This document shows, piece after piece, positions 1,887 through 64,000 of a stretch of DNA of 64,000 nt. The DNA comes from Voacanga thouarsii. Taxonomy: Eukaryota > Streptophyta > Magnoliopsida > Gentianales > Apocynaceae. The stretch's first letter is position 1, and every line of letters starts with the position of its first letter. The notes under the pieces are model-generated. The model saw nothing but the letters and a program-made list of their open reading frames with translations. It had not been told where the DNA came from and did no database searches. Position numbers and translations under genes: made by a program. The stretch is from NCBI GenBank assembly GCA_026120185.1, contig JANUWF010001101.1, positions 3,782,001 through 3,846,000 on the forward strand, given 5' to 3'.

Positions 1887-1935
<49 letters not shown>

Positions 1936-5053: not shown

Positions 5054-5059
5054 AAAATT

Positions 5060-22469: not shown

Positions 22470-23473
22470 TGATGCGATTTCTATATCACAATAACGATTA
22501 CTGTGGCGGAAATTAAGAAATCCAAGCCCCAAGATCACAAGCATGTGATTTAAAACAGGTTTAACAAAGAACAAAGGTAACGGTTTTATCTTTCTTTGAG
22601 CATTTGAAAAATAAAATTTTTCTTCATCTTGTCTGACGATTGTGGCATGATCTAGTAATCCCCTTGACGCCAATGGATCACAAATAGGTTGATTGTCGTG
22701 CCTCTGTGATCACAGTACGCAATCACCTCTAATAGTAGTCCACACGGAGGATCACTCTTAATCACCAAGATGTTTCTGTGCTAGCAGAAACCAAAAAGGC
22801 GGCTAGGGTTTTTTGCAGGAAAAAATGAGAGAAAGAGAAAAGAAGAGAGCCGTGTGTGCCCTAGGTTTTGGTTTTCACTAAGAGAATAGTTCTCTCTGTG
22901 ATAGGATTAAAAGGAATGCATAAAAAAAAAAAAAAAAAACCTTCCTTTCCAGAATCAATACCCACTGTAAGCACGTCCCTGGAATTCTAACAAAGTTAGA
23001 ATCAATAATTGTAAATAAAACTCACAAGTTTTAATATTTACAATCTTGGCCCAAAATTTATAACTAATTATAAATTGACCACATCAACTTCTTTCTCCTC
23101 ACAATGAACCCCACTATGCTATCAAATAATATCTTGAGTATTTAATCCTCTATTATGTGTGACCTATTAGGTTTCCCAGTTAATTGGTAGCAAATATGAA
23201 TTAATCCAAACCCCTTTGAGATTAATAATCCATAATTAATTAGAATTAATCATATTAATTTTAATCAGGATTGGTTTATTAGTTCATCAATTAATAAACC
23301 CATATTCTCAGATCATAAGTGGTATCTAGCAACACATCATGACCACCTAAGAGTCCAGGAAGTCAAATGGTTTGACATGAACCCTTCAATAACAAACTAC
23401 GATGTAATTAACTTATTTCACCATACAATATCTCACTCGATCTAGAGTACAGAATTAGTGCCAACTCCCCCCA

Positions 23474-23510
<37 letters not shown>

Positions 23511-24273
23511 CTGGCCCAAATATAATAGTACTTGTACCAGGAACCCACTACTCTAGATGTGTATCAATTGGAACTATTTTCAATACACAGTCGCCTTGGC
23601 CAAGGACTTCTCAAGTAGTAATTCCTACAAGTGGTCGTGAGATATTCGCCTATACTATTAGGAGTGGTGAATCCTTTATTGGCCCTTTCAACTACTTTCG
23701 TTTACCTCACAATGTACCCAATATCCATCCCATAGGCGGCCCTCGATTTAACTCCAAAGATTGGAATCAAAGCACAATATTCAGCAAACAAAGTACTTTG
23801 GAGATCTCAAGTCTAAGGATATTTGCATGGTTGCTATATTGAGATTATATCACTGGCACTAAATAGTTATCCATGTGATTATCTCATAGCTAGGTCATCT
23901 AATGTACTTGTTCTATTAACAAGCATCCATGTGTTAACTCTGAGTATCTCAATACTCATGGATATGAGAAATACTACCTGATCAAATCAAGAAGTCTAAA
24001 ACATGCTAGTCTTAACGCATTAATAATGTCCTATCTCATTAATACTACGACTAGAGACTATTTAAATACTAACACTATATAGTATAGTAGGAATCTCATA
24101 TCATGATTTTTATCATGATATCCTTAACACAGTATTGTATTAGAGACTTTATCTAACAGTTATTTTACACAAAAGTAGACAAAAGATATTGTATGATAAA
24201 TAATGCCTTTCATTAAAATACAATATGTCATACACAATGTACAAATGATTACCTTTAGGGCAAAACGCTAACA
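22470..24273 (-). mobile_element. Solo LTR of the element B copia family, inserted in the Sirevirus-like 3' LTR
   Basis: About 1.8 kb, starting TGATGCGATTT and ending CGCTAACA, homologous to the LTRs at 8697-9293, 28129-31581 and 28421-30155. It is flanked by CTCTT (22465-22469) and CTTTT (24274-24278). The matching uninterrupted site in the other Sirevirus LTR reads TCCTCTTTACC at 12634-12644, which proves the insertion and its boundaries. No internal region lies beside it. It carries a poly(A) run (22922-22939) and a (TA)n run (23476-23508). Confidence 0.93.
23476..23508. repeat. (TA)n microsatellite
   Basis: A TA run of about 33 bases within the solo LTR. The equivalent site in the other copies of this LTR family (e.g. 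29168, 30803) has only a short TATA-like stretch, so it expanded in this copy. Confidence 0.95.
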
Positions 24274-25280
24274 CTTTTTACCTTTTGATTCAGTTTAATT
24301 CCACCAAGTAGTACTAAAACAAAAGATTTCAAAGTTTTAAAATCCTCAGAATTTTGGATTGAGCGTTTGGGGTAACCCTGCATTTAGAAGTTACGTCTAA
24401 AATTCTGTGAATAATATCAAATCAATTCTACCTAAAAAAGTGTCAATTTGGACTTACTTTTTGATGCACCATTGTCCGAAACATGAGCCAAAATGGTGGC
24501 AAATCTGACAACGAAAAATAGCCATTTTATAGCCATTGAAACTTTACTTTATGACTCTATACAAGGCTTCAAAACTTGATTTGAATACAGATTTTTGTCC
24601 TATCATTCTAAGAAACACTCTTGCTCTATAGAAAATAAAAATCTCCTTTATCAAAGTGCTTCAAAGTGAAATCAAATTGAGTCTTAAAGGTTAAAGTGTT
24701 AGTGCCTACTCTTATTATTTATCTACTCAAAGAAGTGAGCTATTTCTGCTTCATGTATCTTCAATCATCTTTGTGTATCAAGGTTGTGGTGTAAAACCCA
24801 TTTTGGGTGAACCTTGATTTGTTGGTTGGATGAGAGGTTTTGAAAAACCAAGTATGGTGATCCTCTCTTGTAATCGGTACAAATTGATTCCTTTGAGTTA
24901 GGTAAATGAAATCTGGTTGAAAATCCTTAAGTCAAAGCTTAAGGTAGTGGATGTAGATCTTAGTAGATCGAACCACTATAAATTTCGTGTTGTATCTCTC
25001 CGCATTTACTTTCAGCATTTATATTTAGATTAACCTACAAATCATCCCAGCTAGGAATTCCTTAGTTCTTTATAGAAATCCCAAATTTGTTCACCAACCC
25101 ATTTTCAATCCAACATTGATTGCATCGTGCATCTTACCTCTTTCATAATCTAGATAGTTCTCAAAGTCATTTTGAAAAGCTCTCTCTGTTACAAGTGTTG
25201 TTGGTAAAAAACCTGAAGAATAATTCTATTCTTCAAAACAGATTTCTTAAAAAAATTTAGTTTGCCAAAATCCTTATTCA

Positions 25281-28128: not shown

Positions 28129-31100
28129 TGTAGGGATTCAACCATGCAAGAGCATACACACAACGGAAAATAAAACCAAAATCCCTCCCAAAGATCACAT
28201 GTTTGTCAATTAAAACGGGTAAGAAAGCAAGTAACAGGATACCTATTGTAGACTTAATGGAAAAAAATTTCTTCGGTTCCAAACTACTACGATCATGATC
28301 GCAACTGTTCTGTGATTGGTTCTTTACGGTGGCCACTGAAGTCCAAATGAGGACCACCTCTAACAGTATCCACACGAGGGACTCAAGGAAAAACAAAGAA
28401 CACTCTCTGCTAGAAGAGTCTGTTAGTGTTATGCCCTAGAAATAATTACTTGTATGTTGTATATGACACATTTTATTTTAATAAAAGGCATTATTTATCT
28501 TACAGTTTCTTTTGTTTACTTTTGTATAATATAACTATTAGATAAAGTCCCTAATACAACGTTGTGTTAAGAAAATCATTATACGAGATTCCTACTACAC
28601 TGTAAAGTGTTAGTACTTAAATAGTCCCTAGTCGTAGTATTAATGAGACTGGACATCATTAATGTGTTAAGACTAGCATATGTTAGACTTCTTGATTTGA
28701 TCAAGCGGTAGTTCTCATATCCGTGAGTATTGAGATACTCAAAGTTAACACGTGGATGCTTGTTAATGGAACAAGTTTATTAGATGACCTAGCTATGAGA
28801 TAATTACATGGATAACTATTTAGTGCCAGTGATATAATCTCAATATAGCAAACATGCAAGTATCCTTAGACTTGAGATCTCCAAGGTACTTTATTTGCTG
28901 AGCATTGTGCTTTGATTCCAATCTCTGGAGCCAGATCAAGGGCCATCTATGGAGTGGATATTAGGTACATTGTGAGGTAAATAAAAGTAGTTGAAAAGGT
29001 CAATAAAGGATTCACCACTTCTAATAGTAGAGGTGAATATCTCATGGCCACTTGTAGAAATTACTACTCAAGAATTCCTTGGCCAAGGCAACTGTGTATT
29101 GGAAACAGTTCCAATTGATATACATCTAAAGTAGTGGGTTCCTGGTACAAATACTAGTATATTCAGGCCAAAATTAATATATATTCTGGAGGGAGTTGAC
29201 ACTAATTCCGGTACTCCAAACCAAATGAGATATTGTATGGTGAAAGGAGTTAATTGCACTATAGTTTGTTATTGAAGGGTTCATTTCAAGCCATTTGACT
29301 TCCTAGACTCTTGGGTGGTCATGATGTGTTGCTAGATACCGCTCATGATATGGGAATATAAGTATATTAATTGATAAATTAATAAATCAATCCTGATTAG
29401 AATTAATATGATTAATTCTAATTAATTATGGATTATTAATCTCAAAGACGTTTAGATTAATTCATATTCACTACCAATTGACTGGGAAACCTAATAGGTC
29501 ACGCACAATAGAGGATTATATACTCAAGATGTTATTTGATAACATAGTGGGGTTTATTGCGAAAAAGAAAAGTTGTTGTAGTCAAATTATAATTAGTTAT
29601 AATTTATGGTTCAAATTGTAATGAGAACTTGATGTTTTCAATTACAATTAGGGAATTCTAATTGTTTTAGAATCCTGAGATTAAGTAATTTTAGTAGGTT
29701 TTTCGTAATATGTGTGAGACACACATGAAACCCTAGCTAGAGAGGTATTGACGAAAAAACAACAACTCCAAACCTTCTCTTATCTCTCTCTCATTTTTCC
29801 TTCAGAAAAGAAAAAACGAAAACCCTAACCCTAGCTGCCTTGTGTGTTTCTGCTAGCACAGAAACATCTTGGTGCTTGAGAGTGATCCTCCGTGTGAATT
29901 TCTGTTAGAGATAATCACACACTGTGAATATAGTGGTTGGATATTTAACTCTCGTAGTGTTTGATCAAGAGGATTGCTGTATCGCACCTCAACTTGAAGA
30001 AGGAAAAATTTTGTTTTTCAAACGCTCAAAGAAAGGTAAAGTTGTTACCTTTGTTCTCTTTATATCTTGTTGTCCACACATATGCGGATCCTGGATTGGT
30101 ATCTCGCTCTTATTTTTCCACTACGCCATATATGATATGCGTGAGATACCTAATAAAGTCTTTTGCGGCCGGGTTTTTTTTTTCTTCTGTGTCAAAGAAA
30201 AAAACGAGAGAGAAAGAAAGCAGTATGTTCTTCTATGTTTTTCCGCCTAATAAAAATTAGAGAGAACCATTCCCAATAATCCCTTGAAAAACCACAGAAA
30301 ATCCTATTTTTATGAATTCTAATCAAATTAGAATTCACTAATTGCAATTGGAAACTATAAATCTTAACTATTGCAATTTGGCCCAAAATTATAACTAATT
30401 ATAAATTGACCACAATAACTTCTTCTTCTCACAATAAATCCCATAATGTTATCAAATAACACCTTGAGTACTTAATCCTTTATTGTATATGACCTATTAG
30501 GTTTTTTTTGTCTATTAATAGCAAATATGAATTAATCCAAACGTCTTTGAGATTAATAATCCTTTATTTAAAATTAACGTATTAATTCTAAATATGATTG
30601 GTTTATTAATTCATCAATTAATAAACTCATATTCAGCAGATTATGAGCGGTATCTAGAAATACATCATGACCACCCAAGAGTCCAGAAAGTCAAGTGGCT
30701 TAACATGAACCATTCAATAACAAACTACAGTGTAATAAATTTCTTTCACTATATAATATCTCATTCGGTTTGGAGTACGAAATTAATGCCAACTCCCTCT
30801 GAATATAAATTAATTTTGACCCAAATATAATAGTATTTATACCAGGAATCCACTGCTCTACATGTGTATCAATTGGAATTGTTTCCAATATATAATCACC
30901 TTGGCCAAGGATTTCATGAGTAGTAATTCCAACAAGTAGCCGTGAGATATTCGCCCCTACTATTAGGAGTGGTAAATCCTTTATTGACTCTCTCAACTAC
31001 TTTTGTTTACCGCACATTGTACCCAATATCCATCCCATAGGCGGCCCTCGATCTGGCTCTAGAGATTGGAATCAAAGTACAATGCTCAGCAAACAAAGTA

Positions 31101-31581
31101 CCTTGGAGATCTCAAGTCTAAAGATACTTACACATTTGCTATAATGAGATTCTATCACTGGCACTACCTAGTTATCCATATGATTATCTCATATAGTTAG
31201 GTCATCTAATGTACTTGTTCTATTAACAAGCATCCATGTGTTAACTTTAAGTATCACAATACTCACAGGTATGAGAACCACCGCCTGATCAAATCAGGAA
31301 GTCTAACATGCGCCAATCTTAATGCATTAATGATTTGCTATCTCATTAATACTACAACTAGAGATTATTTAAGTACTAACATAATACAGTATAGTAGGAA
31401 TCTCACATCATGATCTCTATCATGATTTCCTTAACACAATATTGTACTAGAGACTTTATCTAATAGTTATTTTACATGAAAGTAAAGAAAACAAATTGAA
31501 AGATAAATAATGCCTTGTATTATAAAACAAATGTGTCATATGAAATTTACAAGTGATTGCCTCTAGGGTAGAACACTAACA
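28129..31581 (-). repeat. Element B 5' LTR, split by a same-family solo LTR
   Basis: Made of 28129-28420 and 30156-31581, which together give about 1.71 kb. They are homologous, in reverse orientation, to the solo LTR at 22470-24273, and the right end CACTAACA is the reverse of the family's TGTTAGTG start. The interruption begins after GAGTC (28416-28420), and sequence resumes with AAGTC (30156-30160). To the right (31582) begins an Athila-like LTR fragment belonging to element C. Confidence 0.85.
28421..30155 (+). mobile_element. Solo LTR of the element B family in opposite orientation
   Basis: Starts TGTTAGTGTTATGCCCTAG and ends near ACCTAATA (probably a changed CTAACA). About 1.74 kb. It is the reverse complement of the LTR around it and of 22470-24273. 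Flanks GAGTC and AAGTC form a target duplication with one difference. No internal region or primer site is present, so it is a solo LTR left by recombination between two LTRs. Confidence 0.85.
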
Positions 31582-32403
31582 CAATTATATAAAATTAATC
31601 AAATTGAACTCAATCTAACTTCGTTTTCCAAGTCCATTAGACATAAATTCAACCTCAAAGATCTATCAAATAAAATTAAGTAATCAAATACGAAGAATAA
31701 TAACTAATTGATCAAAGACTAAATAAAATGCAATATCATGAATCTGAAAATAATATTCAATTACAATAAAAACATTAATCTCATCATTGTTCAAAGGAAA
31801 AGAAAACAAAGGTCTTAGAAGGAACTCATAGACAAGCCCTCTTATTCCTTCTTTGAGAACCTTCTTGAACCAATGCTCCTTCGAGTGACAAATTCCCCTT
31901 CACTGAATAAATTTAGCTTTTTCTCCTTTGGATTCATATGTTAATCTTCATTTTGTCTTGGTTAAATAAGCATCTCGGTTGCTAAAATTCATCCTAAAAG
32001 CCCTAGGCTGAGTACAAGTTGGGAACAAATTAACCTCTTTGGCAATTTCCCATTTGACTTGAAAAAGGACATTGAACCGCCTTAACAGAACAGGGCTAGT
32101 GCCCGGTCACTTCATCTGGACTGGTGCCAGTCCTACTCTGGAATTATTCCAGTTTAAGCTTTATTTCCTCTAATTTTTTAGAACCGAGCCACAATTAGTT
32201 CAACCATTCTGAGCAGGCATCGAGTTAAGTTTGGAAAACTCTAATTTCACTTAAAATTGTCCAATTCCTGTACAAATTCACTAAGAATACTTTCCACAAG
32301 CAAAAACATTAAATAGAAAGGGAAATGACTAGTTATTAAACCAAAAGTATCACAAAACATCCTTAAATAACTACGAAAACGTAGACAAAATTAGGCCCTA
32401 TCA
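31582..32403 (-). repeat. Athila-like LTR remnant (5' LTR of element C)
   Basis: It reads like the right part of the element A LTR (compare 2290-3137 and 5650-6499): TTTTCCAAGTCCATTAGA near 31622, a TCTTGAACCAATGCTCC-type passage, the GC-richer GTGCCCGGTCACTTC block near 32100, and the end AGGCCCTATCA. The left 600 bases expected for this LTR are missing at the junction with element B. Confidence 0.7.
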
Positions 32404-32747: not shown

Positions 32748-34016
32748 ACTTTTTGCACGTCCTCAGATAAATTAATTTTTCAAAAAGACTTAAGATATGA
32801 ATTTCAAAATTTCAAAAGCATGGTGGAGATATAATCTTTTTCTTTCATAATGAAAAACAACTTACACTTATTCAATCAAGAAAACATAAGATAAACTCAC
32901 TTATTAGATCAAATATATCTAAGGTCATTGAAGTTAGTTTAAACAAGTTCATAACTATTCAATGCATTCCACCTCTTCTCTTGATCAAAACATATAAGCA
33001 ATGCAAATCATATAAATAAGCCATATATAACCAACTTACTTCTTTGCACTTTGGCTTGTCTAAACTATTATATATTCCATAGCAAACTAGGACTTTTATT
33101 TTTTACTCAAGAATGTAACTGGAATATGCACTTACCTCCCTTCTTTTTTCTATTTTGCTCACCATTTTTTTCACTCTTTTTTTTTTTTCTTTTCTCATAT
33201 TCATCAAATTTTTTCTTGGGATTTATAGCTTCAAGTGAATGTATTTCACTCCATCTCACCGTATTGGCTCCTTTTCATTTTTGTTCTTCACTCAAGAGAA
33301 TGCAAGTAGTTTTGGGCACTTGCATTACATTTTTTTTTTCCTATTTACTTAAACCCAAATTTAGGCATAGTCTAGACAATGTTTTCCAAAATTAGCACAT
33401 AAACCATACTTATATTCAATAAACCACTTCTATGAATTTTTTAAGGTTAAAAGCATCAAACATCTAATAAAAATGAATAAGGTTAAAGCAAATTCTCAAG
33501 ACTTAGTTATCTCTAACCTAATATAAAAGCTTAATAAAAATCAATTTAATCAAATAAACATCAAAGAAAATTTCAAAGTCAAAAGAAAAGATATTAGCTC
33601 CACCAATTTGTCCATTAAAAATCTCCAAAATTTTTCAAAATTTTGCCCAATTTCACACAAAGTCTTGGAAAAAGAATCTCAATTCCACACCCCCACACTT
33701 AAATCAGACATTATCCTCAATGGATGAAAATAAGATAATAAAGTACAACCAAAAGGACAATAATGATAAAGGGAGTAAAGAAAATCAAAGCTTCCCATGA
33801 GAATGCATGCATGCAATTATATGACTGCCAAATTTTCGTTAATCAATTAGATCCAAAAGTTGAGATTAAAAATTTGGGAAAAGAATTTGCAAGTTTAGCT
33901 CCACACTTAAACAGTACATTATCCTTAATAGATGTAAATAGAATGACAAAGTATAGTAAAAAAAAGATCGAGGGGATAAAGAGAGAGAGAGAAAACAAAT
34001 ACTTTCCAAGAACAAA
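32748..34016 (-). other. Element D internal region, left part (no gene)
   Basis: AT-rich and non-coding. Two related blocks, about 33660-33780 and 33870-33990, each contain CCACACTTAAA...ACATTATCCT followed by an A/G-rich stretch, so they are a diverged tandem duplication of about 210 bases resembling the 3' UTR of the related gypsy elements. Small ORFs here are incidental. Confidence 0.55.
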
Positions 34017-35419
34017 TGATATGGGCTAAAATCATCACTATTTTTCTAAAGTATTTGAGAGTGCTTTGTGATAAATTTGTTGTAATAACTAGACATATTC
34101 CTTCATATTTGATATTTTACCATTGGAAAGGTATTTTAAAATTTTATTGCAGAAAACGATGAAAAAACTACAAAATCGTTGCCGTCAATGCACGTCACAG
34201 AGCCGACGCTGGCACCGGCCCCTATTTGGAGAACAAGGGAAATTTTTGTCAAAAAATAGAGCAAGACCGGAGCTAACCAAAGCATGGCCGACGCCAACCG
34301 TGACCCTCCAAGCCAGCACCGGCTGCACTCTAAGTAATTCGGCAAGCTTTTCCAATTTTGTGCAGATTTGGTAATTTCCATTCCCTACTCAATCCAAAAC
34401 TCTTAGGGGACAAATTTTAGCATCTTTGGAAACCTATTTAAACAAGAAAAACACAAAACACAAGTATGAATTCAAGGATTAAATTAGAAAATCACTCATT
34501 GAATGAGGAATTCATCAAATCAAGGAGGATTGTCAAAAAGAGCCTTCAAGTGAGAGGAAAGAGGCTTGTCTATAAGTGTTTTCTTTTACCTTTGTTTTCT
34601 TGTTCTTAAAAAATAATGTATTCAATATTTTCATTATAATTTGACATTGTTCATGGGATTTATGATCTATTGAGTTAATTAAGTCTTTTTGATCAATTGA
34701 TTGTTATTCTTGGTATTTGATTACTTGTTTTCCTTATGGAGTTAGTTGATTGATTTTTGTTATTAACTTACTTGAAAAAGAGATTGGTAATGATTTTAAT
34801 TAATTAATTTCATATTTGTTATCTCTTAACTCGCTTGAAAAATGGGTTAATTATTTAGAACTTAGATAATCAAATGTTGGTTAATGATTGCTAAAATATA
34901 GATTCATTGACTAATTTCATATTTTAAATCGCCTAGAATATAGGAGTCTATATAAGGATTGATTTTAATGCATCTTTTGGGTAAATTGGTTGAGACAGAA
35001 TATGTTCACTAATTTAACTAGAAGATAGTGATTCCATGGATTAAAAACGAAGTGGGTCTATCTTAAATCCTTCATGAAACTAAGATGATAATTGATTATG
35101 ATACTGACTAAGTAATTCATTATCATGTTTTCAAAAGACTTTGTCTAAATTGCATATTTTCACATCCTTGAGTTGTATATATTTTTTTATTTTTATTTTT
35201 CTTATCTTATCACTTTATTTGATCGGTTAAACAATGAATGAAAAGTGATTAGTGTGTACTTGTTCCTTTAAGAATTGATACTCATTAATTTTCCTATGCT
35301 ATGCTTGCGATGAGTATACTTTCTCATATGTGTATTTCAGGATTAATATTTTTATTAAAACTTGACTAAGAGATGGATTTAAATTTAATGATTTTAATAC
35401 ACCTAAAATTTATGCATCA
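34017..35419 (+). repeat. Element E 5' LTR
   Basis: Direct repeat of 42723-44138. It starts TGATATGGGCTAAAATCATC (mate TGATAGGGGCTAAAATCATC) and ends TTTATGCATCA (mate TTACATATCA). 1403 bases. A GC-rich passage at 34170-34335 stands out in U3. Confidence 0.93.
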
Positions 35420-35425
35420 AGTTTT

Positions 35426-41358: not shown

Positions 41359-42722
41359 GTATTTTCCTACTACTCTGTATTTCTTTTCTCTTTATATTTT
41401 CATGACCTTTCTTAGAATTTTTTTTAGTTGCTTTGTTTTCTTTATTTTGATCCTCTTGTTCTTTTTCTTTGTTTATGTTTTTCTATTTTTGTTTCTTTTT
41501 TTATTATTTAGGTACTTATTCCCTTATGCCTCCTTGTGATGAATTCAAATATGTTGCAGTTTAGTTGTAATAGGAGTTTTTTTTTTTTTTGCTCTATTTT
41601 TTCTCTTTAATTATTTTGGTCCCTTGGCTTTGCTTTCTTTGTTATATTTTTTGCCATTGAGAACAATGTCCACTTAAAGTGTCGGGGAGAGTTTGGTATT
41701 GAAAATATTTTTCATATCTATCCATATCTATATTTTCTAAAAATTTTCTGAGAATTTTCAAATTTTTTTATGGTTTCAATGCCTTAGCAATGTTATGATT
41801 ATCTTTCTTTTTTTGGATATGAGATGTGTCATTCCTTAGGTGGATTTTTATAATACAATGATTTGTTGGACAGGATATGTTAAGACTAGAGAATTTGAAT
41901 TAATCTTGTTTATGCATTAGTATTTGAGTATATTATTTGACTCATCTAGTTTAAATGTGGAGAATGTGAGGAATATGAGAAAGGTTGTTAACTAACTCTT
42001 GTATTATGGGATTAAATTTTGCTTAACTTTGAGTTATGATGAGGAACGTGAGGAGATAAAATCTTTGAAAGAAAAGATTATGGAAAAATTGTGGAAAATT
42101 TTTGTAAAAATGAGTTGATTGTTGTTGATGATAAAATTTGTTTTTGATTGATTATGGGGGTCAATATGGATAGTGAAGAGAAATCTCCGTTCTTGAGGCT
42201 ATGAATTCCCTAAAGCAAAAGAAAGAAAAAAAGATTTTTAAAAAAAAAAATATGATGAGTGATGACTATAAGGGGACCAATACTATGTGTGAAGAGAAAT
42301 CGATACATTTAAGACTATCAATTCCCTAAGTCGTTGAAAAAATTGAGAGAAGAGTAAAATTTGGAGTGTTTTCCTTACATCATAACTTGAGTTGTGCAAT
42401 TTTTGGACATATAATACTTGAGCTGGTAGATAACTTAACTTGTATAATTCATGTTATCCATGTTTTTACTTGACGGGTGAAATAATATTCTTAGACTAGA
42501 GTATGGACTTGTTTAATTCAACTTTAAGGGCCTTGATATGTCTTGTGTAGTACTTTGTTTTGAGAATGCTTTCAAATGGTTAAAAGAATGACAAGAACAT
42601 ATCTAAATTTTGAAAGTTAATTGTGACTTTGTTTTAAGTGAAAACTTTTTGAAAGAATGTCTTGTTTTTATTTGTTTAAGGGCTTTGCTTGAGGACAAGT
42701 AAGAGTTCAATTGTGGGGGAAT
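41359..42722 (+). other. 3' UTR of element E with polypurine tract
   Basis: Non-coding. Contains GCCATTGAGAACAATGTCC and AAGTGTCGGGGAGAG (41650-41695), the equivalent of the CCACACTTAAACTAGACATT block in element A. The tract TTGTGGGGGA (42711-42720) is directly before the 3' LTR at 42723. T-rich low-complexity stretches occur at 41400-41520 and 41575-41590. Confidence 0.7.
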
Positions 42723-44138
42723 TGATAGGGGCTAAAATCATCACTATTTTCCTAGTTATTTAAGAGTGTTTTGTAATACATTTATTATAGAAAATTTTAT
42801 ATTCCTTCATATTTGATATTTTACCTTTGAAAAGGTGTTTTGGAATTTTATTGCAAAAAAAACGACAAAATCGTCGCCGCCAGTGCACGGTCGGCTTCAG
42901 CCGTGACCCACAGAGCCGGCGACGGCCCTGATCTGGAGAACAAGGGAAATTTTGTCTAAAAACAAAGCAAGACTAGAGCCGACCAGTGCACGGACGGCGT
43001 CGGATGTGATCCTCTAAGTCGGCGCTAGCTGCACTCTGAGCAATGTCAGTGAGCTCCAATTTTGAGCGGATTTGATAATGTTCAAGAGTTTTGATCTTTT
43101 TCAATCCCTACTCGGCCCAAAACTCTTAGGGGACAAATTTTAGCATCTTGAAAACCTATTTAGATAAGAAAAACACAAGACACAAGTACGAATTCAAGGA
43201 TCAAATTAGAAAATCACTCATTAAAGAAAGAATTCATCAAATCAAGGAGGATTGTCAAAGAGAGTCTTTAAAGGAGAAGAATGAGGCTTGCCTATGAGTG
43301 CTTTCTTTTACCTTTGTTTACTTGTTCTTAAACAATAATATATTCAATATTTCCATTATAATTTGACATTGTTCTTGGGATTTATGATTTATTGAGTTAA
43401 TTAAGTCTTTTGATCAATTGATTGTTGTTCTTGGTATTTGATTACTTGTTTTCTTACGGAGTTGGTTGACTGATTTTTATTATTAACTTGTTTGAAAAAG
43501 AGATTGGTAATGATTTCAATTAATTAATTTCATATTTATTATTTCTTAACTCACTTGAAAAATGGGTTAATTGTTTAGAACTTAGATAATCAAAGGTTAG
43601 TTGATGATTGCTAGAATATGAATTTATTGGCTAATTTCATGTTTTAAATCACCAAGAATATAGGGGTTTATATGTTGATTGATCTTAATGCATCTGTTGG
43701 CTAAATTGGTTGAGATATAATATATTCACTATTTTAACTAGAAGATAGTGATTCCATAGATTGAAAACGAAGTGGGTCTATCTTAAATCCTTCATGAAAC
43801 CAAGATGATAATTGATTGTGATATTGACTAAGTAATTCATTTTCATGTTTTCAAAAGATTTTGTCTAAATTGCATATTTTCACATCCTTGAATTGTATAT
43901 ATTTCTTTATTTTTTTTTTCTTATCATATCACTTTATTTGGTCGGTTAAACAATGAATTAAAAGTAATTAGTATGTACTTGTTCTTTTGAGGATCGATAC
44001 TCGTTAATTTTCCTATACTATGCTTACGATGAGTATACTTGCTCGTATACGTATTTTGAGATTAATGTTTTAATTAAAACTTAATTAAGGAATGTATTTA
44101 AATTTGATAATTTTTATACACTCAAAATTTACATATCA
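42723..44138 (+). repeat. Element E 3' LTR
   Basis: Direct repeat of 34017-35419, 1416 bases, ending CATATCA, followed by the target duplication ACAAA (44139-44143). Confidence 0.93.
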
Positions 44139-44143
44139 ACAAA

Positions 44144-50403: not shown

Positions 50404-50822
50404 CACTACAGGAAGAGTGACCTTTAGTGATAATGTAATGTTGTCACTACATGCAGAAATATTGTTACTAAAGACATTTAGTGACAAAATATTTCTTGTC
50501 ACTTCAATGTCGCTAAAGGTGTATAGTGACAACAACTTATTTTTGTCACTAACTGTTGCCTTTTAGTGACAATATTTTGGTTGTCACAGATGTAATCAAG
50601 TATTAGTGACAACATTCCATGTCACTAATTTGTTTCAAAAATCGTCACTTTTTGCCAATATATTGTCACTAATTGATTACTCATTAATGACAACATACTC
50701 CTTGTCACTAATTGATCATTCATTAGTGACAACCTCCACCTTGAATAACATCAGTGACAAGAACTTATTGTTGTCACTAAATGTATATTATAGTGACAAC
50801 ATTTTACTACATCATTTTATTT
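50404..50822. repeat. Left CACTA terminus and subterminal repeats
   Basis: CACTACAGGAAGAG followed by about 20 copies of TAGTGACAA / TTGTCACTA and one-base variants, alternating in direction at roughly 15-40 base spacing. Adjacent opposite copies can pair as short hairpins. Confidence 0.9.
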
Positions 50823-52207: not shown

Positions 52208-54501
52208 CTACTCTGGGGCCCTTCCCAATTGCTCAAGAATTTTTACCATAAGCTCATTTGTCTTCGTTTGATCCGCTTTCAAAGTTGCAATTTCTTCTGC
52301 CATTGTAGCAGCATTCTGCTTAGCTTCTTGTCTAAGGCGTCTATTCTCCTCCAACTTGGTAAGATATTGTTCTTCATTGAAGGAACTTTGTTTCTTGGTT
52401 ACACCTCTGCCACGTATATGCCCAGGTATATGGCCTATGGTTTCCTTGCAAATGTCAGCAGTGCTCATTGTTGTTGTTTGCTGCATTTCTTTCATTTTCT
52501 CCTAAACAGAAAAAGAAAAGAAAAAGAAACTGTCATGGAAAGTAATAAATCCTAACATATGATAGTTAAGAAGACTTAGAATTATTTTGCAAACCAGATT
52601 CTCCTTTGCTTTTTCATTTACAAAGTCTTTCTTTTTCTTGGAAAATCTTGTGATTTGGTAAATTTCAATGTCATCAAGTTTTGTTCCTTCCTTCCTTTTC
52701 TGCAAAAAAAAAAATTACAAAATGCAGTATGAGTTAGCTTATTCTATCTTATCCAATTGTTGAAGATCAGAATAAAACATGAAAACAGTTTTAACCTTCT
52801 CATCCTGCAATCGTGCAATGGATTTTGTCCCAGTTGTATGTGGTATAGTGTTCTTGGCATAAGCTTCACTATTCCTCTTGCTCATTTTCTTTTACAAAAT
52901 AGAGAAATGTATGAAGTCAACTTCTACAAAAAGCATTAGTTTAATATTCACAATCTAACTACTACAAGAGCATATCAGAAACTCTTCTGTACAAAAGTAT
53001 TCACAAAGCCATTTCCAGTCATTTTCGTCTTTGACTTTTTTTGGTTTATGTTGTAAAGCTTCCCCTTTACTGCCAAACTTTTTAAAGTGAAAATGAAGCT
53101 TGTAACGCATGTTTCTATATTGCACATTTAGCTGTTTGAAAACAGTTGCTTTGGTCTTTTCATTCTCCACAATATTAGAGCCATCCTTCAATATAGAGCA
53201 AGAGTTAATCAAAGAACAGAGATCTTTATGGTTTGCAGTGAATTTAGTCTAAGCAGTAAGCACTTTGTGTGCTTGTATTCAGTCAATTTAAAGAACTAGT
53301 GGCCAGTGCTAATGGCCTGATTTCAATTTTGGTCAGTTCCTCTCATTACTTTGTTAGGAAAATATTCCAAGAATTAGTAGGCAGCTATAGTTTCGTCAAA
53401 CAATGTACTTGCCTAGCCAAAATAGCTATAGTTTCATCAAGATCTTAAATTCTTGCCCAGCCAAAATGAAAAAAAAAATTCAGGGAGAGAATTATCTTAT
53501 ATTTTTGTTTTCTGTATTCTTTAAAGGAAATTCAGTAATGATGGAATCTCCAGCAAAAACGAATATTAGAGCCACTCTCCCCGTGTTGCTCTCTTAGTGC
53601 ATCTCTATTGAATAATGCCCCTAATAGTGGCCACAGCAGTTTAGAACTTTTTTCCAATTAATCTTATATTCTAACTATCTAAGAATGTCATAAAATAATT
53701 TATAAATATACTCTTACTCGAACTATGTTGTATAAGTCTTCCCTATGTTGTTCATTCAGCTGTGCCCATTTTGTAACTTGTAACTTTGCATTTGTCCTCA
53801 AAATGCAGCCTTCCTCGGTTATCAGAAACTATGCATCTGGGCCGACAATGCGATCTGCTGCCTTGGACAACTCAACTTCGAGGTCTTTTTCACTATCTCT
53901 TTTTTTTTATAACGTAATATTCCTTGTTGGACCTCTTTTTCTTGTAGGTGCTGAATGGCCTACAAGAATTAATATTTCAGAAAGACCACAAAAAGTAATA
54001 AAACTATTCCGGGATTACAGCAAAAACAAATAAAAGTTTTACTGTATCCATTTGACCTTCTGAAGTCATATTTACATCAGTACTTCTAGGGGCATGAGAT
54101 TCATAATTTGGAAAATTATCTGTATTTTCACATCTTGTGCCAAGATTTGGTGTTGGGGATGAACTATCATTAACATGATTAATTGATTCAGGACTTTCTC
54201 TTCTTATTGCATTATTACCGTCACTTTCACTTGGAAGCATCAAAATATTGGCACATGGGATAACAGCTTCTGGACTTGTACCTTTTGATCTAGTGACAAG
54301 ATTTGGTGTTGGGAATGAGCTATCATTAACATGATTGACTGATTCAGGACTTGTTTTTCTTATTGCATTATTATCGTCACTTTCACTTGGAAGCATTGAA
54401 ATATTGGCACATGAGATAACAGCTTCTGGCCTTGTACCTTTTGCTCTCCTACCACCCTTTCCCTTTCTAGCAAATGTTCCTTTTCTTTCTGGTCTAGCCA
54501 T
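52208..54501 (-). pseudogene. TNP1-like CACTA accessory gene (Transposase_24 type), multi-exon
   Basis: The Transposase_24 family comprises CACTA/En-Spm proteins thought to bind subterminal repeats. Inferred minus-strand exons: 54501-~54045 (MARPERKGTFARKGKGG, then a 52-residue tandem duplication); ~53975-53725 (SAPTRKRGPTRN...VTKWAQLNEQHREDLYNI, with a frameshift in an A-run near 53907 and a stop near 53832); ~53212-52960 (VFKQLNVQYRNMRYKLHFHF and DWKWLCEYFCTEEF); ~52888-52800 (AYAKNTIPHTTGTKSIARLQ); ~52702-52595 (RKEGTKLDDIEIYQIT, FVNEKAKEN); 52498-52208 (RGRGVTKKQSS, then a coiled coil EENRRLRQEAKQ...EELGRAPE-like end). Each exon matches a successive block of the family. Splice sites are inferred, not proven. 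Confidence 0.8.
54145..54455 (-). repeat. 156-bp tandem duplication in the TNP1-like gene
   Basis: Two copies of a 52-codon unit (PEAVISCANISMLPSESDDN / PEAVIPCANILMLPSESDGN), with GCACATG at 54251 and 54407. In frame and diverged by several substitutions. Confidence 0.9.
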
Positions 54502-54762: not shown

Positions 54763-57700
54763 CTAGAATTCATTGTCAAACAATAGTCCTTCATCTTCAT
54801 GTCCATCACTTTGAGAATCATCATCTAGGTCATCATCGTTGATGAAATCATTATCTTCTTATTCTTGGAATTGGAGCATCTCATTGTAAAAAATGCATTC
54901 AAGGGGCTCTGCTATTCCTCGAGCAAGAAATGATATTTCATCAATTTCCCTGACAATATGATCATCAGTTTATTCCTCTTCTTGGAATGTTTCAACCATG
55001 TCTTTTTCAATCTCTTGTTCAGGAACATCATAAGAACTTCTTAGTTTGAAGCTCTCTACCATAAACCAGTTTTTCCCTAATGTCATGTCCTGTAAATAAA
55101 AGACTTGCGCAGCCTGAGAAGCAAGCACATAAGGTTGATCTTGATACCACCTACAAGATATATTTATGCTTGTAATTTTTCAATCTTTATCTACCTGTAA
55201 ACCAGAATTATCACCTACATAAAACCATTCACACTTGAACAACATCACTTTCTTTCTACCCAATCAGTAATCTACCTCAAAAATATCTAGCACTACCCCA
55301 TAGAAGTCTACTGAATTTGCCCCATGTTCTCCTTTTACTACAACACCACAATTTTGTGTTCTCCTATCTTATTCACGATCCTTGGTGTGAAATCGTAAAC
55401 CATTCACACAACAGCTAGCAAATCTCTTAAATCGGCTATCAAGACCCATAGCCAATGATCGAAGTTCATTACTGCACACTTCTTGGCCATACAAAACCTA
55501 TTCATCAAATGTTAAATCTTTTGGAAACTATTTTATTGTGAATTCCAAAAGAGAAAATGTCAAATTCCAAAAAGAATAAGTATGGCATGAAAAATATACT
55601 TACACGTTCTCCAAACATGGTTGTGAACTTTTGCCACTTTAAAGTCATATAACACATCACAGTTATTTAACACATGGTTGTGAACTTTTGCCACTTTAAA
55701 GTCATCTAAGTGGTGATGAGTTGGACTACCAAATGGTCGACTGCTACATGAAAACACTGAGATCTGCCCACTAGGTTCACCTCTATCACAATTGCGCTCA
55801 GGTTTATTACATATTATCTCACTATTGTGCAAGTACATCGAGGTGAATGTCCAACATTCATTATCTATATAACACTCAGCAATTGAACCTTCAGGCTTTG
55901 CTTTGTTCTTCACGTAACTCTTTAATATACCCATTTTTCTAAGAAATAGCAACAAAAATTTGGTAAGTTTTTTTAATATTAGAATTTTATTAATTCTTTT
56001 AAGTGGATAGGAAAGTGTCTATTAGAGTAGTACTTTACCTCTCAAATGGAAACATCCAGCAATATTGTGCTGGACCAGCAATTTTACACTCATCTGGCAA
56101 GTGAAGCATCAAATGCATCATAATGTCAAAGGCTGACGACGGAAATATTTGCTCGAGCTTGCATAAAATAACAGCAATGTTTTTCTTTTGTTCTTCTAAG
56201 ACATTGAAATTCAATGTTCTAGAACATAACTTCTTAAAAAAGTCACTCAATTCAAATAAGACTTGCCGAACATCCTTGTTTAAACAACCACGTAGAGCAA
56301 GAGGAAGAATACGTTGCACAAAAATGTGACAATCATGACTTTTTAAACCAGAAATATTGCAATCATGGCTTCTAATGCATCGAAATGTATTTAACATAAA
56401 ACCATCAGGATATTTAATGGAACTCAAGAATTCACATACTTTCCTTCTCTCATTTTGAGTTAAATTGTAGCAAGCCATAGGAGTCTCAAATGAATCACCC
56501 TTAGAGATCAAATGCAGTTCTGGCCGTATCCCCAATTCTATCAAATCTCTGCGACATTTCCAACCATCTTTTGTTTTACCTTTAATTCCCATTATTGTGC
56601 CAAAAACTGTATCAAATACATTCTTCACTACATGCAAGATATCCATATTATGTCTGATATGAAAATCTTTCCAATATGGCATCTCAAAGAATATACTTTT
56701 CTTGGTCCAATTTGAGTTATTGTCTCTGCGTTTCCTCTTTCTTTATTGGAGTAACTCCTGTGATTTTCCAAACGCTTGGTTGGACCCCTTAAATCAACCT
56801 CTCCATTAAATGATTTTCTATCTCTCCTCTATCTATGGTTTGAAGGCAAAAATCGATGATGGCCAGTATAACAAATTTTCTTCCCGTGTCTTAAATGCAT
56901 AGAAGAAGTGTCATTCATGCAATAGGACAAGCCATATAGCCCTTTGTACTCTATCCAGATAAATTTGCATATGCTAGAAAATCATTTATTGCTCATAACA
57001 ATGTAGCATGCAACATAAACATTTCCCCTGAATATGCATCAAATGTCTTGACTCCAGGTAGACACAATTTGTTTAATTCGTCAATCAAAGGCTGGAGATA
57101 GACATCAATATCATTTTCTGGTGACTTTGGTCAGAAATAAGTATTGTCATCAAGAAGAAAGGATCCTTCATGCATTTCCAAGGAGGCAAATTATAGGGCA
57201 CTAGAAATACTGGCCAAATACTATATGAATTACTCATGTTTCTGAAAGGATTGAAACCATCACTGGCAAGCCCTAACCTAATATTGTGAGAATCTTTTGC
57301 AAAAAATTCATGCTACTGGTCAAAGTGCTTCCATTCTTCACTATCAGCTAGATGCCTCATGACATTATCATCATTTATGCACTTTTCTTTATGCCACCTC
57401 ATATCATAGGCTACTTCTTTATTCGCAAAGAACCTTTGTAGCCTCGGCTGTAATGGAAAATAGCACATGACCTTTCGAGGTATTTTTGAACCATTAGATT
57501 TATAGCACGGTTCCTTACATTTCAAATTAGGGCATTTGTCTAAATCTGCAAACTCATTCTTGTATGAAACATAGTCATTGATGCGTTAGTGTATCTTTTC
57601 ATAACTAAAACCTAAGTCTCTAATAATTTTTTTTTTTTTTGCTTTATTATATGAGTCGAGAATCAATGAGCCTAAAGGCAGTGCATTCTTGAAAACTTAT

Positions 57701-58259
57701 AAAAGCAAATCAAAAGATTTCCTGGTCCACCCACTTGTGGTCTTCAAATGAAGAAGTGTCACAACAAAGGATAATTGTGAGAAATGTGTATGCCTTGGAA
57801 AGAGTTCTTGTTTCGCCTTATTTAAAAGTTTGAGAAATTTATCCACAGCACAACCTCCTTCTGCATTACCATTGCTATCTTCTACATTCCAACTATCCCC
57901 TTAAGTGGCATTTCCAATATCATTTAACTTTTCAACCATATTGTCATCATCTTCACTACCTCCCTCATCATCATCACACTCAACATGTTCATGGTCATTT
58001 GTATTAGAATGAGCAGCAATATTTTCAAAGGTTTCGCTGTGATATATCCATTGAACATAGCTCCTACGAATTCCATTTATAATTAAATGATCTTCTACAA
58101 CTTGTCTAGGATGATCCTGAAAGTTATTACAGAGAACACAAGGACAAGGAATCCTTGTATGATTGTCTCTTTGTGCATATGCAAATTGAAGAAAATTTTC
58201 ACCCCATTTTGATATCTAGGATCCAATTTATTCTTGATTTGCATCCAACTCTTATCCAT
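54763..58259 (-). pseudogene. TNP2-type CACTA transposase
   Basis: The transposase cuts element ends. ATG at 58257-58259 (MDKSWMQIKNKLDPRY) opens the transposase-associated domain; a frameshift follows, then IPCPCVLCNN and a DDDEGGSEDDDN linker. Transposase_21 core: SKIPRKVMCYFPLQPRLQRFF (57313-57525), YSIWPVFLVPYNLPPWKCM (near 57200), a frameshift near 57135, then IDVYLQPLIDELNKL. The open stretch 56035-56682 runs from MPYWKDFHIRHNMDILHVVK to FPSSAFDIMMHLMLHLPDE (DUF4218). Next, KNKAKPEGSIAECYIDNECWTF (55860-55955) and a DUF4216 region (55090-55400; QPYVLASQAAQVFYLQDM). An acidic C-terminus ends at 54763-54765, with in-frame stops near 54860 and 54972. Confidence 0.92.
55619..55732 (-). repeat. 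57-bp tandem duplication in the transposase gene
   Basis: GGTTGTGAACTTTTGCCACT recurs at 55619 and 55676, giving the doubled peptide YDFKVAKVHNHV. Length is a multiple of three. It lies between the DUF4218 and DUF4216 regions. Confidence 0.85.
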
Positions 58260-60504
58260 TAGACCTAATATTGATAAAAAAAAAAAAAATAGCACAAGAT
58301 TATGTGCAAGTACATAAGCCAGTCACAGACATATAATTCAACTAAGTCCACTTAATAAAGCCTAGGAAAACTGAAACAGTTGTATAATTAACAAATCAAG
58401 GAAATAGTGGCTCTGACCGGCTATAACATTTATGGATTGCTACTTACTTACATTACAATACAAATAATATTAAAGAAACAATAAAGGCAACAAAATCAAT
58501 AAGGGGAGGCCAAGCTAAACGCCTTGGCCTTTTGGCAGCAATTCTTACTTCTGCAGTGAATCTAAGACCCTTCTTCCTCAACAACAAAAACCCATCTCAC
58601 TGTTACAAACTCCATAGAATTCTCAAATGATTTTATCTTGGCATAATAGGGGCTGAAGTTTAGGGTTTTAGAAGGTGAAGGTAGATGTTGATTTGTAGTG
58701 GAGGAAGCTGAAGTAGGGCTTAATTATATGGATAACTTATGTTGCTTCAGCTCTCAGGTGAGTTTCTTTGTGCTAGTTAAGTTTGGGGTTTAGTTTTTAT
58801 ACTATTTTTAATTTTAAACTGCTATGTTAGTCATATCCATTAAAAGGATTCTGTTGAAACATTAGTAATCATACTGTTTTAGTTTCCTGTAATTTGTGTT
58901 CGACTGTGTCGATGAACTTCAATTGTTTTGTCAACTGTTTCAGTTGTTTGTTGTAATGAGTTTTACAAATAAATTGCAGCATGAGAGCATGAGTGCAATA
59001 CTAAACTAGCAATCTGCTTCTTATTTTGCCTGTTTATTTCCTAATGAATGGTCGTATCTATGGTCATTTTCTTACAAAAGAAGCCTGTACTACACATGTT
59101 AAACTTAAGTCTAATGTTTTCTCCTATAAAATTTCTTGTCCTCTGCAATGCTTACACTTAAGTTCTTTGGTTCCAACCTAATTCTTTTCTTACTGACTTT
59201 GTGGAGTACTAGGAATAGATTAAATACATATGCTGCCCACAAGGTCCAACAAAAGTTGGAGCTAAAGTTCCCATCCCTATCCCAAAAAGCAATTATTGGA
59301 CAACCAAAATCACCCATTCCCCTCGACCAAACTGCAACTATCTAAGTCCAAATAACATGATTTTGAGCCATGCAAATACGGAGAAGCAGGATTACTGTCA
59401 ATTTGTTTCACTTAATAAAGCCTAGGAATTCCATGTCTAGCATCATCTTAGTACAACATGTAATAATATGTTTCACTTAAATAGATTTTTACATTTGAGA
59501 CATCTTAGTTATGAAAAACTCGCCTTAATATTTCAGTGGCTCGCCTATTCCTTGAGAATGCAAAACACCAATGACGGATTCCAACACCAACACTAAATCA
59601 CATTACTACCTAAACCAAGCAAATATAAAAATACTTTTAAAACTCCAATGTCTTCTCAATATGTTTATTGCTTGATACAAAGAACAAAATCCCAACTACC
59701 CATTGTTAGCCAAAAGTCCATAAAGATTTAATCTTTATGTGTTAGAAATGTATAAAATGTCAGAATCATTAGAAAAAGAACAAAAAAAATTTTAAAAAAT
59801 CTAATGAAGCTAAAGCCCATGAAAAATCAGTCAGTTTGAGCTAAAATTAATGGGAAAAAACAACACAAAATTGACAGAGGTAGCTGCAATACAACGAAAT
59901 CTCTGTTCATTCAAAAATCAACTGGGGAAAAGCTCGAAACACAAAACCCATATAAAACCAAGTAATGTATGCAAAATCGAAATACAAAATCACAAGATCT
60001 AAAGTCATACCTGAAACACAAGTGTCGGAGGAGTTTTCCTAACAAACACTGACGATCGGATGCCCGTCAACTACTACAACGATTTCATCCACGCAGTTGC
60101 CAGATTTTGCAGCCCATTCATTTTTTTTCTCTCGAAACCCATATCACAATGTTCGTTTGGATATGTATGCAGGTGGTGAGTAACTCTTCAAGAGGAAAAG
60201 GTCGGGAACAAGCGATGTCAGAAGACCAGGAGCAAAAGGTTTTGTGGAGTGGGTTAGAGACAAGTCTGAGCAGTGCTAGATGAAGCCGTTTTTTTCCCTT
60301 TTGTTTTGTTAAGTTCTCAGATTTTTTTTATTTCTTCCCTCGATTTTTTCTCTCAGCATTTTCCGCTTTGGCACAAATAGTTTTGTCATAACTAATAAGG
60401 CATGCGGTTGCCAGATTTTTCATGTAGACACCTACCATACGTTTTCATTGCTTCCCTCTGGTGATTAGACTTATCTAATTTTAGATATTAGGAAATATAT
60501 GGAG

Positions 60505-60711: not shown

Positions 60712-61021
60712 AGTGTACTATTTTAAGCATCAAATTGAAGTAATTTTTTAATCATATAAAAATTTATAAAGGTATGATTATTTGATTTATTATAAAATTC
60801 TTATTTTTTTCAAGCTCTAAGAGTAAACTTTCTTATAAATTGAATAAATTTGTGAGCTACAAATAGGCTAATGTTGACTATCGTAACAAAGTTTTTTAAT
60901 TAATAGGTTGATGAGTATGTATTACATGCCGCAAGTTGGTTACTATGTATTTTTATAGTTTCCAAAAAGCAATAGTGAAAATTTTTGAGAAAAAATATCA
61001 AAATTCAATTAGCACATATTG

Positions 61022-61130
61022 CAGAACTTTGCGATGTATTTTTGAACCCTGTGATTTGTAACGAGGTTCTCTACATTTCAAATTTAGGCATTTGTCTAGA
61101 CCTGTATACTCCTTTCGTTATAGAATACAT
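61022..61130 (-). pseudogene. Displaced duplicate of a transposase fragment
   Basis: The minus strand encodes KCLNLKCREPRYKSQGSKIH, nearly the same as KCPNLKCKEPCYKSNGSKIP of the transposase at about 57460-57530. DNA similarity continues right to about 61130 and stops left of 61022, so only about 100 bases were copied. It lies just before the tandem array. Confidence 0.85.
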
Positions 61131-61201
61131 ACAACCGTTCACACATGTATTATATACATACTAATATACATATTGTATCCATATACTAGATACATATTGT
61201 A

Positions 61202-63610
61202 GACATTTGTTGGATTGCATACCAAAATATATTTAATTATCTTCAAATTTGGTCATAACACTTTTCTTAGCAATTTCAACAAATCTAATGGTTGGATTAT
61301 TAATTTGAAGTGTCTATCTTTGTAAATGCCTTAGGTTTTCAGATTTTTGTAGAGATTTAACTGGATTGCATGCCAAAATATATTGGATTATCTTTAAATT
61401 TTGTCATAACACTTTTCTTAACAATTTCAACAAATCTAATAGTCGGATTGTTAATTTGCAGTGTTTATCTTTGTAAATACCTTAGGTTTTCGGTATTTTT
61501 GTAGATATTTTATTAGATTACTTGTAAAAGTATATCCGATTATCTTAAATTTGGTCATAACACTTTTTCTTGTAATTTAAACAAATCTAAAAATCGGATC
61601 ATTAATTTAAAGTGCCTATCTTTATAAATACCTTAGGTTTTCGGTATTTTTGTAGACATTTGTTAGACTACGTGCAAAACTATATCCGATTATTTTTAAA
61701 TTTTCTCATAACACTTTTCCTTGCAATTTAAACAAATCTAACAGTCAGATCATTAATTGAAAGTGCATATCTTTGTAAATGCCTTAGGTTTTCGATTTTT
61801 TTGTAGACATTTGTTGGATTGCGTGCCAAAATATATCGATTATCTTCAAATTTGCTCATAACACTTTTCTTAGCAATTTCAACAAATCTAGCGATATGAT
61901 CATTAATTTCAAATGCCTATCTTTGTAAATGCCTTAGATTTTTTAGATTTTTGTAGAGATTTAACTAGATTGCATGCCAGAATATATCAAATTACTTTTA
62001 AATTTAGTTATAATACTTTTCTTAATAGTTTCAACAAATCTAACAGTCAGATCGTTAATAAGCAGTGCCTATCTTTGTAAATACCTTAGGTTTTCGGTGT
62101 TTTTTTTAGATATTTTGTAGAATTACGTGCAAAAGTATACCCAATTATCTTTAAATTTTGTCATAACACTTTTTCTATCAATTTAAACAAATCTAACGGT
62201 CAGATCATTTATTGAAAGTGCCTATCTTTATAAATGCCTTAAGTTTTCAGTCTTTTTGTAGACATTTGTTGGATTGCATGCCAAACTATATCCGATTATC
62301 TTCAATTTTGGTCATAACACTTTTCTTAGAAATTTTAACAAATCTAATGGTTGAATCATTAATTTGCAGTGCCTATCTTTGTAAATGCCTTAGATTTTCA
62401 GATTTTTGTAGAGATTTAATTGGATTGCATGCCAAAATATATCGGATTATCTTTAAATTTTGTCATAACACTTTTCTTAACAGTTTCAATAAATCTAATG
62501 GTTGTATCATTAATTTGCAGTGTCTATCTTTGTAAATACCTTAGATTTTCGGTATTTTTGTAGATATTTTATAAGATTACGTGCAAAAGTATATCCGATT
62601 ATCTTTAAATTTGGTCATAACAAATTTTCTTGTAATTTAAACAAATCTAACGGTCAGATAATTAATTTAAAGTGCCTATCTTTATAAATGCCTTATGTCT
62701 TTGGTATTTTTGTAGATATTTGTTGGATTACGCGCAAAAGTATAACCGATTATCTTTAAATTTACTCATAACACTTTTCCTTGCAATTTAAACAAATCTA
62801 ATGGTCAGATCATTAATTGAAAGTGCCTATCTTTGTAAATGCCTTAGGTTTTTGGTTTTTTTGTAGACATTTAACTGGATTGCATGCCAAAATATATCGG
62901 ATTATCTTTAAATTTTTTCATAACACTTTTCCTAATAATTTTAACAAATCTAATGGTCAAATCATTAATTTACAGTGTCTATCTTTGTAAAAACCTTAAG
63001 TTTTTGGTATTTTTGTAGATATTTTGTTTGATTACATGCAAAAATATATCCAATTATCTTTAAATTTTTTCATAACACTTTTTATAGCAATTTAAACAAA
63101 TATAACGATCGGATTATTAATTGAAAGTGCCTATCTTTGTAAATGCCTAAGGTTTTCGGTCTTTTTGTAGACATTTGTTGGATTTCGTGTCAAAATATAT
63201 CTGATTATCTTCAAATTTGGTCATAACACTTTTCTTAGAAATTTCAATAAATCTAACGGCTGAATAATTAATTTGAAGTGCCTATCTTTGTAAATGCCTT
63301 AGGTTTTCAAATTTTTGTAGAGATTTAACTAAATTACATGTCAAAATATATCTGATTACCTTTAAATTTGTTTATAACATTTTTCTTAACAATTTCAACA
63401 AATTTAACAGTTGAATCTTTAATTTGCAGTGCCTATCTTTGTAAATACCTTTAATTTTCGATTTTTTTGTAGATATTTTGTAGGATTACGTGCAAAAGTA
63501 TATCCGATTATCTTTAAATTTGATCATAACACTTTTTCTTACAATTTAAACAAATTTAACGATCAAATCATTAATTTAAAATGCCTATCTTTATAAATAT
63601 CTTTATAAAA
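61202..63610. repeat. 16-copy tandem array of about 151 bp with ABCD higher-order pattern
   Basis: Unit starts at 61202, 61352, 61504, 61655, 61806, 61956, 62109, 62261, 62411, 62563, 62715, 62866, 63018, 63170, 63320 and 63472 (period 150-153). Every unit has TGGTCATAACACTTTTCTTA-like and CTATCTTTGTAAATGCC blocks. Units fall into four types by their start: A GACATTTGTTGGATTGC, B GAGATTTAACTGG, C GATATTTT...TACGTGCAAAAG, D GACATTTGTTAGACTACG-like. Order: A B C D A B C/D A B C D B C/D A B C. The last unit is truncated. No protein is encoded; the 107-aa ORF at 62212-62535 is an artefact of the repeats. Confidence 0.93.
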
Positions 63611-63619
63611 ATTAGTGTA

Positions 63620-64000
63620 GTCACAAGTGAGATTTCCCGCTTTCAAATGAGATTGGCGGGAAAGCCTTTAGTGACAAAGTTTTCCATTCACACTAAAAGT
63701 TATCATTTAGTGACAATCTTTGTTTTGTCACTAAAGGTTTGTCTCAACAACTTAAAATGTTGTCTCCAATTCTGTTATTTAGTGACAAGCATTTTGTTGT
63801 CACTAATGTTTATTATCACTAAAGCCTATTTCTCCAACATTTTTCGTCACTAAATGCACATAAATAGTGACAAGAAAAATGTTGTCACTATAAGTGTACT
63901 ATTTAGTGAGAAGACATTTTTTGTCACTATAAGTGCATTATTTAGTGACAACAGTTTTGTTTTAGTGACAACAATTTTTTAGTTGTCACTAAATAGATTT
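63620..64000. repeat. Right subterminal repeats of the CACTA element
   Basis: About 15 TAGTGACAA/TTGTCACTA motifs and variants, many as closely spaced opposite pairs, e.g. 63963-63993. A separate 8-bp hairpin TTTCCCGC/GCGGGAAA spans 63633-63663. The element continues past the window. Confidence 0.88.

Follow-up and report, generated by a model that had tools for sequence, protein, structure and literature searches.

A tandem array of 151-bp units stands beside a decayed transposase gene in the stretch of DNA analysed here, a window of 64 kb. The earlier note on this locus had described the array as a satellite-like higher-order repeat (HOR) inside a CACTA transposon, and had suggested that the transposon may be a nursery for a satellite family. 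The question raised by this locus is whether the unit arose from the transposon and was passed on to the host, or was taken up from elsewhere and carried along.

The array and its unit types

The array was delimited using Tandem Repeats Finder, which reports 15.9 head-to-tail copies with a period of 151 bp and 81% matches; the same span (61197 to 63598) is also reported at a period of 455. When the array is cut in the phase used by the earlier note, 16 units (u1 to u16) are obtained, the last of which is incomplete. The sixteen units of about 151 bp described there are borne out, including those that begin at 62109, 62866, and 63018. The identity between units ranges from 72 to 93%, with the pair at 72% including the partial unit u16. 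The GC content is 26.0% for the array and 32.6% for the window. A stop-to-stop frame of 112 residues spans part of the array, and the array is treated as non-coding because no candidate relatives were found for the translation of this frame. The possibility that the unit is itself built of shorter subrepeats was rejected, as only a 9-bp inverted match was found within it. The coordinates of the array, its units, and the surrounding features are presented in Table 1.

Table 1. Positions of the array, its units, and the features of the surrounding element in the 64-kb window
Feature	Position	Strand	Remarks
Left terminus of CACTA element	50404..50419		begins CACTACAGG
Left subterminal TTTAGTGACAA cluster	50423..50799		13 of 29 matches; both orientations; 3' side of transposase gene
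Decayed tnp2-type transposase gene	54970..58259	-	pieces in several frames with stops
PF13952	54970-55179	-	above profile cut-off
PF13960	within 55560-56742	-	above profile cut-off
PF02992 (Transposase_21), three pieces	within 56829-57312	-	above profile cut-off
PF13963	57901-58215	-	above profile cut-off; decayed piece
Possible intron, GT...AG, from untranslated first exon to transposase start	58265..60010	-	by eye, letters checked
Second, short tnp2 remnant beside array	61004..61117	-	tblastn 58% over 38 aa, E 8e-12
Tandem array	61197..63598		A B C D / A B X / A B C D / B X / A B C(partial)
Starts of u1 to u8	61202, 61352, 61504, 61655, 61806, 61956, 62109, 62261
Starts of u9 to u16	62411, 62563, 62715, 62866, 63018, 63170, 63320, 63472
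First ABCD block, u1-u4	61202..61805		604 bp; 91.6% identical to u8-u11
u7, type X, possible C/D hybrid	62109..62260		four diagnostic sites C-C-D-C
Second ABCD block, u8-u11	62261..62865		605 bp; 1059 bp after first, a seven-unit step
u12, B-like	62866..63017		follows a D unit; A missing
u13, type X, possible C/D hybrid	63018..63169		four diagnostic sites C-C-D-D
Right subterminal TTTAGTGACAA cluster	63667..63993		13 of 29 matches; 5' side of gene

The units were grouped using a maximum-likelihood tree. Units u1, u5, u8, and u14 form type A and units u2, u6, u9, u12, and u15 form type B, with split supports of 84 and 96, respectively. Units u3, u4, u7, u10, u11, u13, and u16 fall into a joint C/D/X group with a support of 98, inside which the support is weak (66 for C, 70 for D, and 62 for X). 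A tree made without the 11 CpG-type columns gives supports of 64, 99, and 98 for A, B, and the joint group, and of 73, 65, and 53 for C, D, and X, respectively. The four types A, B, C, and D that had been claimed reduce to three, with a weak subdivision in one of them: A and B stand apart as described, and the split between C and D is weak. A shuffle of the labels, which compares distances within and between types, was matched in 0 of 20,000 trials; it is not counted as evidence because the labels derive from the same distances and the test is circular.

Only four columns carry fixed differences between C (three units) and D (two units). The units at 62109 and 63018, which had been read as C/D chimeras, do show mixed states at these four sites (Table 1), and a chimeric origin is a possible reading of them. 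A crossover between C and D could yield u13 directly and u7 with one further change, and both units could also be explained by an older c type that was not yet divided.

Order of the types and divergence of the copies

The order of the units was examined with C, D, and X pooled as c. A is followed by B and B by c in nine of nine successions, a count that is reached in 9 of 200,000 random orders. The rule is broken nowhere in the array when the last unit is exempted, which occurs in 58 of 200,000 random orders. Circularity is avoided in this test because the types were assigned from sequence and not from position. A strict-period test on position was applied for the seven periods from 2 to 8, and the p values are given uncorrected. 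Period 3 provides p = 0.019, a modest statistic on which the trimer-first order of events proposed below rests, and period 6 provides p = 0.039. The values for periods 7 and 4 are 0.15 and 0.75, respectively, and those for periods 2, 5, and 8 are at least 0.88. A tetramer as the sole description of the array was rejected on the value for period 4. The earlier description of an array made mostly of ABCD blocks of about 605 bp therefore holds for two complete blocks (u1 to u4 and u8 to u11) and for an order that is not random, and a three-unit A-B-c phasing takes the place of the strict tetramer.

The two complete blocks align over 605 columns with one gap. The longer alignment of u1 to u7 with u8 to u13 is 90.5% identical and contains 156 gap columns, roughly the length of one unit and five columns more. 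The four pairs of the same type at a distance of seven units (u1 and u8, u2 and u9, u3 and u10, u4 and u11) have a mean identity of 91.6%, and other distances represented by two or more pairs give 84.7 to 87.7%; a single pair at a distance of ten gives 89.5%. The mean at distance seven is matched in 0.52% of 20,000 within-type permutations (p = 0.0052), to which the D pair adds nothing as it cannot be permuted. Neighbouring units have a mean identity of 81.7%. What speaks against a clean seven-unit repeat is the identity of only 82% between u6 and u12; unit u12 is nearer to u2 and u9.

The clearest higher-order feature of the array is the seven-unit step of 1059 bp. The absence of an A unit before 62866 was correctly noted, since u12 is B-like and adjoins the preceding D-like unit. 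The picture is one of A-B-c phasing in which some seven units were later duplicated, with an A unit lacking from one of the two copies. Unequal exchange is the natural reading of both the missing unit and the step.

The copies have diverged unevenly. The 10 CpG-type columns vary at 0.356 and the 142 other columns at 0.116, a difference of about threefold, although the CpG-type columns were picked for their content, with CG in 3 or more of the 16 units, and this choice may bias the comparison. At five CpG-type sites the states other than CG are CA or TG in 39 of 51 cases. This excess is as expected for methylated, silenced DNA, and the array may have been in that state.

A head-to-tail arrangement, ordered unit types, and a duplicated block, which characterize satellite HORs, are all found in this array. 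Blocks that are far more alike than their units are not found, as the best blocks reach 91.6% and neighbouring units 81.7%. There is no sign of recent homogenisation because the units are only 72 to 93% alike and even the best blocks do not exceed the value just given. For an array of 16 such units, the likeness to centromeric satellite HORs was overstated.

The CACTA element around the array

The placement of the array inside a CACTA-type element is supported by a CACTA-type left terminus, by a short subterminal motif present on two sides in both orientations, and by the tnp2-type transposase domains PF13963, PF02992, PF13960, and PF13952. The motif TTTAGTGACAA appears 29 times in the window with at most one mismatch, where 3.3 matches are expected, and none of the 29 lies inside the array. 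The right terminus of the element is beyond the end of the window at position 64000. The copy of the transposase is decayed because its pieces lie in different frames with stops between them. The best named relatives of the tnp2 sequence are from eudicots (Sesamum at 54%, Camellia at 53%, and Vaccinium at 49%), and two further matches are at 60 and 69%.

The start codon of the transposase was located by eye at 58259, with the letters checked, and the possible intron upstream suggests an untranslated first exon near 60.0 to 60.3 kb. Given the start codon and the putative first exon, the array is placed 5' of the gene, at a distance of about 2.9 kb from that codon. The short tnp2 remnant beside the array resembles the gene itself, with 78.7% DNA identity over 89 bp between 57470-57558 and 61026-61114.

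This remnant could mean that two CACTA elements were joined or nested. In the arrangement considered, the segment from 50.4 to 60.4 kb would be one element and the array together with 63.6 to 64.0 kb would be part of another, deleted one. The adjacency of the remnant to the array, the position of the right end outside the window, and a short terminus-like word, TGTAGTG, at 58694 are consistent with such a junction. However, the TTTAGTGACAA motif is common to both outer clusters. When up to three mismatches are allowed, the window contains the first 16 letters of the left terminus a single time and no second copy. Exact matches to the word CACTACAA number two, with 2.4 expected by chance, and no motif cluster lies near the match at 58693-58700. 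Two elements are accordingly rated as rather improbable. Both ends are assigned to one element because they share the motif, and the best explanation is a single CACTA element of at least 13.6 kb, if both clusters belong to it, that is now broken.

The position of the array upstream of the gene would also suit a functional module, such as an array of binding or enhancer sites on the transposase promoter, and one stretch of the 151-bp unit, CTATCTTTGTAAATGCCTTA, is well kept. A conserved functional box at this stretch was rejected, however, as its conservation is within chance (p = 0.35). The decay of the transposase and the lack of subterminal-motif matches within the array also speak against such a module, which is considered highly improbable.

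Further features were observed in the same element. Two tandem copies of 156 bp (90% matches) lie at 54132-54447, inside an open frame at 54004-54501 on the minus strand that forms the second gene-like region of the element; no Pfam match above cut-off was obtained for this frame. A Pfam match to LsmAD appears at 52208-52501 on the minus strand (26.4 bits with a cut-off of 25, E 9.8e-6); this match may have arisen by chance from a stretch resembling a coiled coil. In the transposase gene, a 38-bp stretch within the DUF4218 region is repeated 57 bp apart with 97% identity (55615-55709).

Elsewhere in the window, the segments 12393-13634 and 22193-25280 look like the LTR pair of a copia-like element (87 to 90%). 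The second of these is split by an insertion of 1.9 kb, relatives of which are found at 28421-30057 and 30314-31582. Two pairs of direct repeats of about 1.4 kb (1664-3134 with 5059-6497, and 34014-35420 with 42720-44139) are 84% alike and are probably LTRs of old elements. A copia gag-like frame in the window has a match in Catharanthus at 42%.

Origin of the unit

The source of the unit was sought in the element itself. The overall consensus of the unit and the consensus sequences of types A and C were compared with tnp2, the subterminal repeats, the intron, and other parts of the element within the window, and over the 42 comparisons no similarity beyond that of Markov-shuffled controls was obtained; an origin from these parts was rejected. 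In the lowest of the 42 comparisons, 5 of 100 shuffles scored at or above the observed value. No comparable unit appears elsewhere in the 64-kb window, where only stretches of up to 29 bp were found (best E 0.002). Searches with the exact unit pattern in viral_contigs and genome_contigs returned no matches in either collection, and these carry little weight since the collections are viral and prokaryotic.

Since the unit resembles no tested part of the element, it probably entered by capture and was later remodelled through unequal exchange. This argument proceeds from lack of similarity, and an inner source of the unit may instead have eroded. The reading preferred here, and held with moderate confidence, is that a CACTA (En/Spm-type) DNA transposon of flowering-plant origin carries in its 5' region a passenger array that was captured, grew in tandem, and has since diverged.

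A different form of capture would be the uptake of a piece of an existing genomic satellite in which higher-order structure was already present, with nothing but decay since then. The unit is unlike the element, and 16 ordered units could represent a segment of a longer HOR array. We know of no such satellite in the host, which counts against this account, and the irregular ABCD/ABX/BX order is compatible with local growth as well, so that this account is regarded as possible but doubtful. Capture is also the explanation favoured by the authors for the 171-bp array of Chenopodium quinoa, where, in the account of that element, there is no indication that it generated the satDNA array (PMC8978399). 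The C. quinoa element is CACTA-like and 16.5 kb in length, with 32.5 monomers near its 3' end (PMC8978399). As here, a tandem array of similar unit length lies inside a tnp2-type CACTA element. In contrast, the present unit is 151 bp, the array has 15.9 copies, and its position is 5' of the transposase. The monomer consensuses of several C. quinoa elements are reported to be 97.7 to 98.8% alike, whereas the present units are more diverged.

The proposal that the array arose inside the CACTA family and gave rise to long arrays of a 151-bp satellite at other sites of the host genome draws on its HOR-like organisation and on published cases of this process, namely Atenspm/Ensat1 in Arabidopsis and Jozin in Chenopodium. 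In the descriptions of other Chenopodium species, a tnp2 fragment (Jozin) starts satellite arrays such as the satDNA CficCl-61-40 (PMC7320549). A tnp2 remnant adjoins a tandem array there, as it does here, but the Jozin start monomer is the fragment itself, of about 40 bp, whereas the present unit is no more like the remnant than shuffled controls are. For Arabidopsis, a review table gives the 5' UTR of Atenspm as the source of Ensat1 (PMC9659126), and transposase-made breaks followed by recombination have been proposed as a mechanism of satellite formation (PMC6947457). Another account derives Ensat1 and Ensat2 from the TIRs of Atenspm2, with a segment of about 151 bp in Ensat2 (PMC10794571); the monomers are listed in review as 499 bp for Ensat1 and about 151 bp for Ensat2. 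These cases also link an En/Spm-type element to satellites, and the length given for Ensat2 is that of the present unit. The monomers of the Jozin and Ensat type contain sequence of their own transposon, and the present unit shows no such resemblance to any tested part of the element.

Against a nursery, the rest of the window holds no comparable unit, the present copy is diverged, and its transposase is decayed; the proposal is considered unlikely. The fuller version, in which the CACTA family keeps the array as a stable 5' part, has seeded HOR arrays of the host, and so would place the beginning of higher-order structure inside a cut-and-paste transposon before amplification, is judged very unlikely.

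Two further published systems were considered. VaccSat3 of Vaccinium consists of 154-bp units in tandem in DNA3-1 DNA transposons (PMC7290377). The likeness lies in a tandem unit of 154 bp with 21% GC, carried by DNA transposons with 3-bp target duplications, and the difference in the element shown, which is non-autonomous and has four units. Kinship with VaccSat3 was rejected using the published primers, as the best score of 22 is also reached in 4 of 26 other pieces of the window and in 12 of 300 Markov sequences. Soybean Tgmt* was set aside as a parallel, since its description gives subterminal repeats and not such an array.

For the captured passenger array, the following course of events is proposed. 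The first step was most likely the capture of a short piece of foreign DNA beside a duplicated scrap of tnp2, with the right subterminal repeats on one side and the upstream part of the tnp2 gene on the other. Tandem growth of this piece probably began with an A-B-c trimer of about 454 bp. Through unequal exchange or slippage during replication, some seven units (1.06 kb) would then have been duplicated as a block and one A unit lost, and C may have been fused with D. Afterwards the copies would have diverged, with excess change at CpG sites. The array was probably simply carried, with no role in transposition.

The literature already contains satellite arrays that lie within CACTA elements or originated from them, as the accounts cited above attest, and the present array is a further example. 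It adds one more satellite-like array riding in a CACTA element and belongs to ordinary plant repeat biology. The array keeps a partly readable record of unequal exchange in its three-unit phasing, its seven-unit step, and its missing unit. If host-wide arrays of this unit exist, it can be asked whether higher-order structure precedes or follows the expansion of a satellite.
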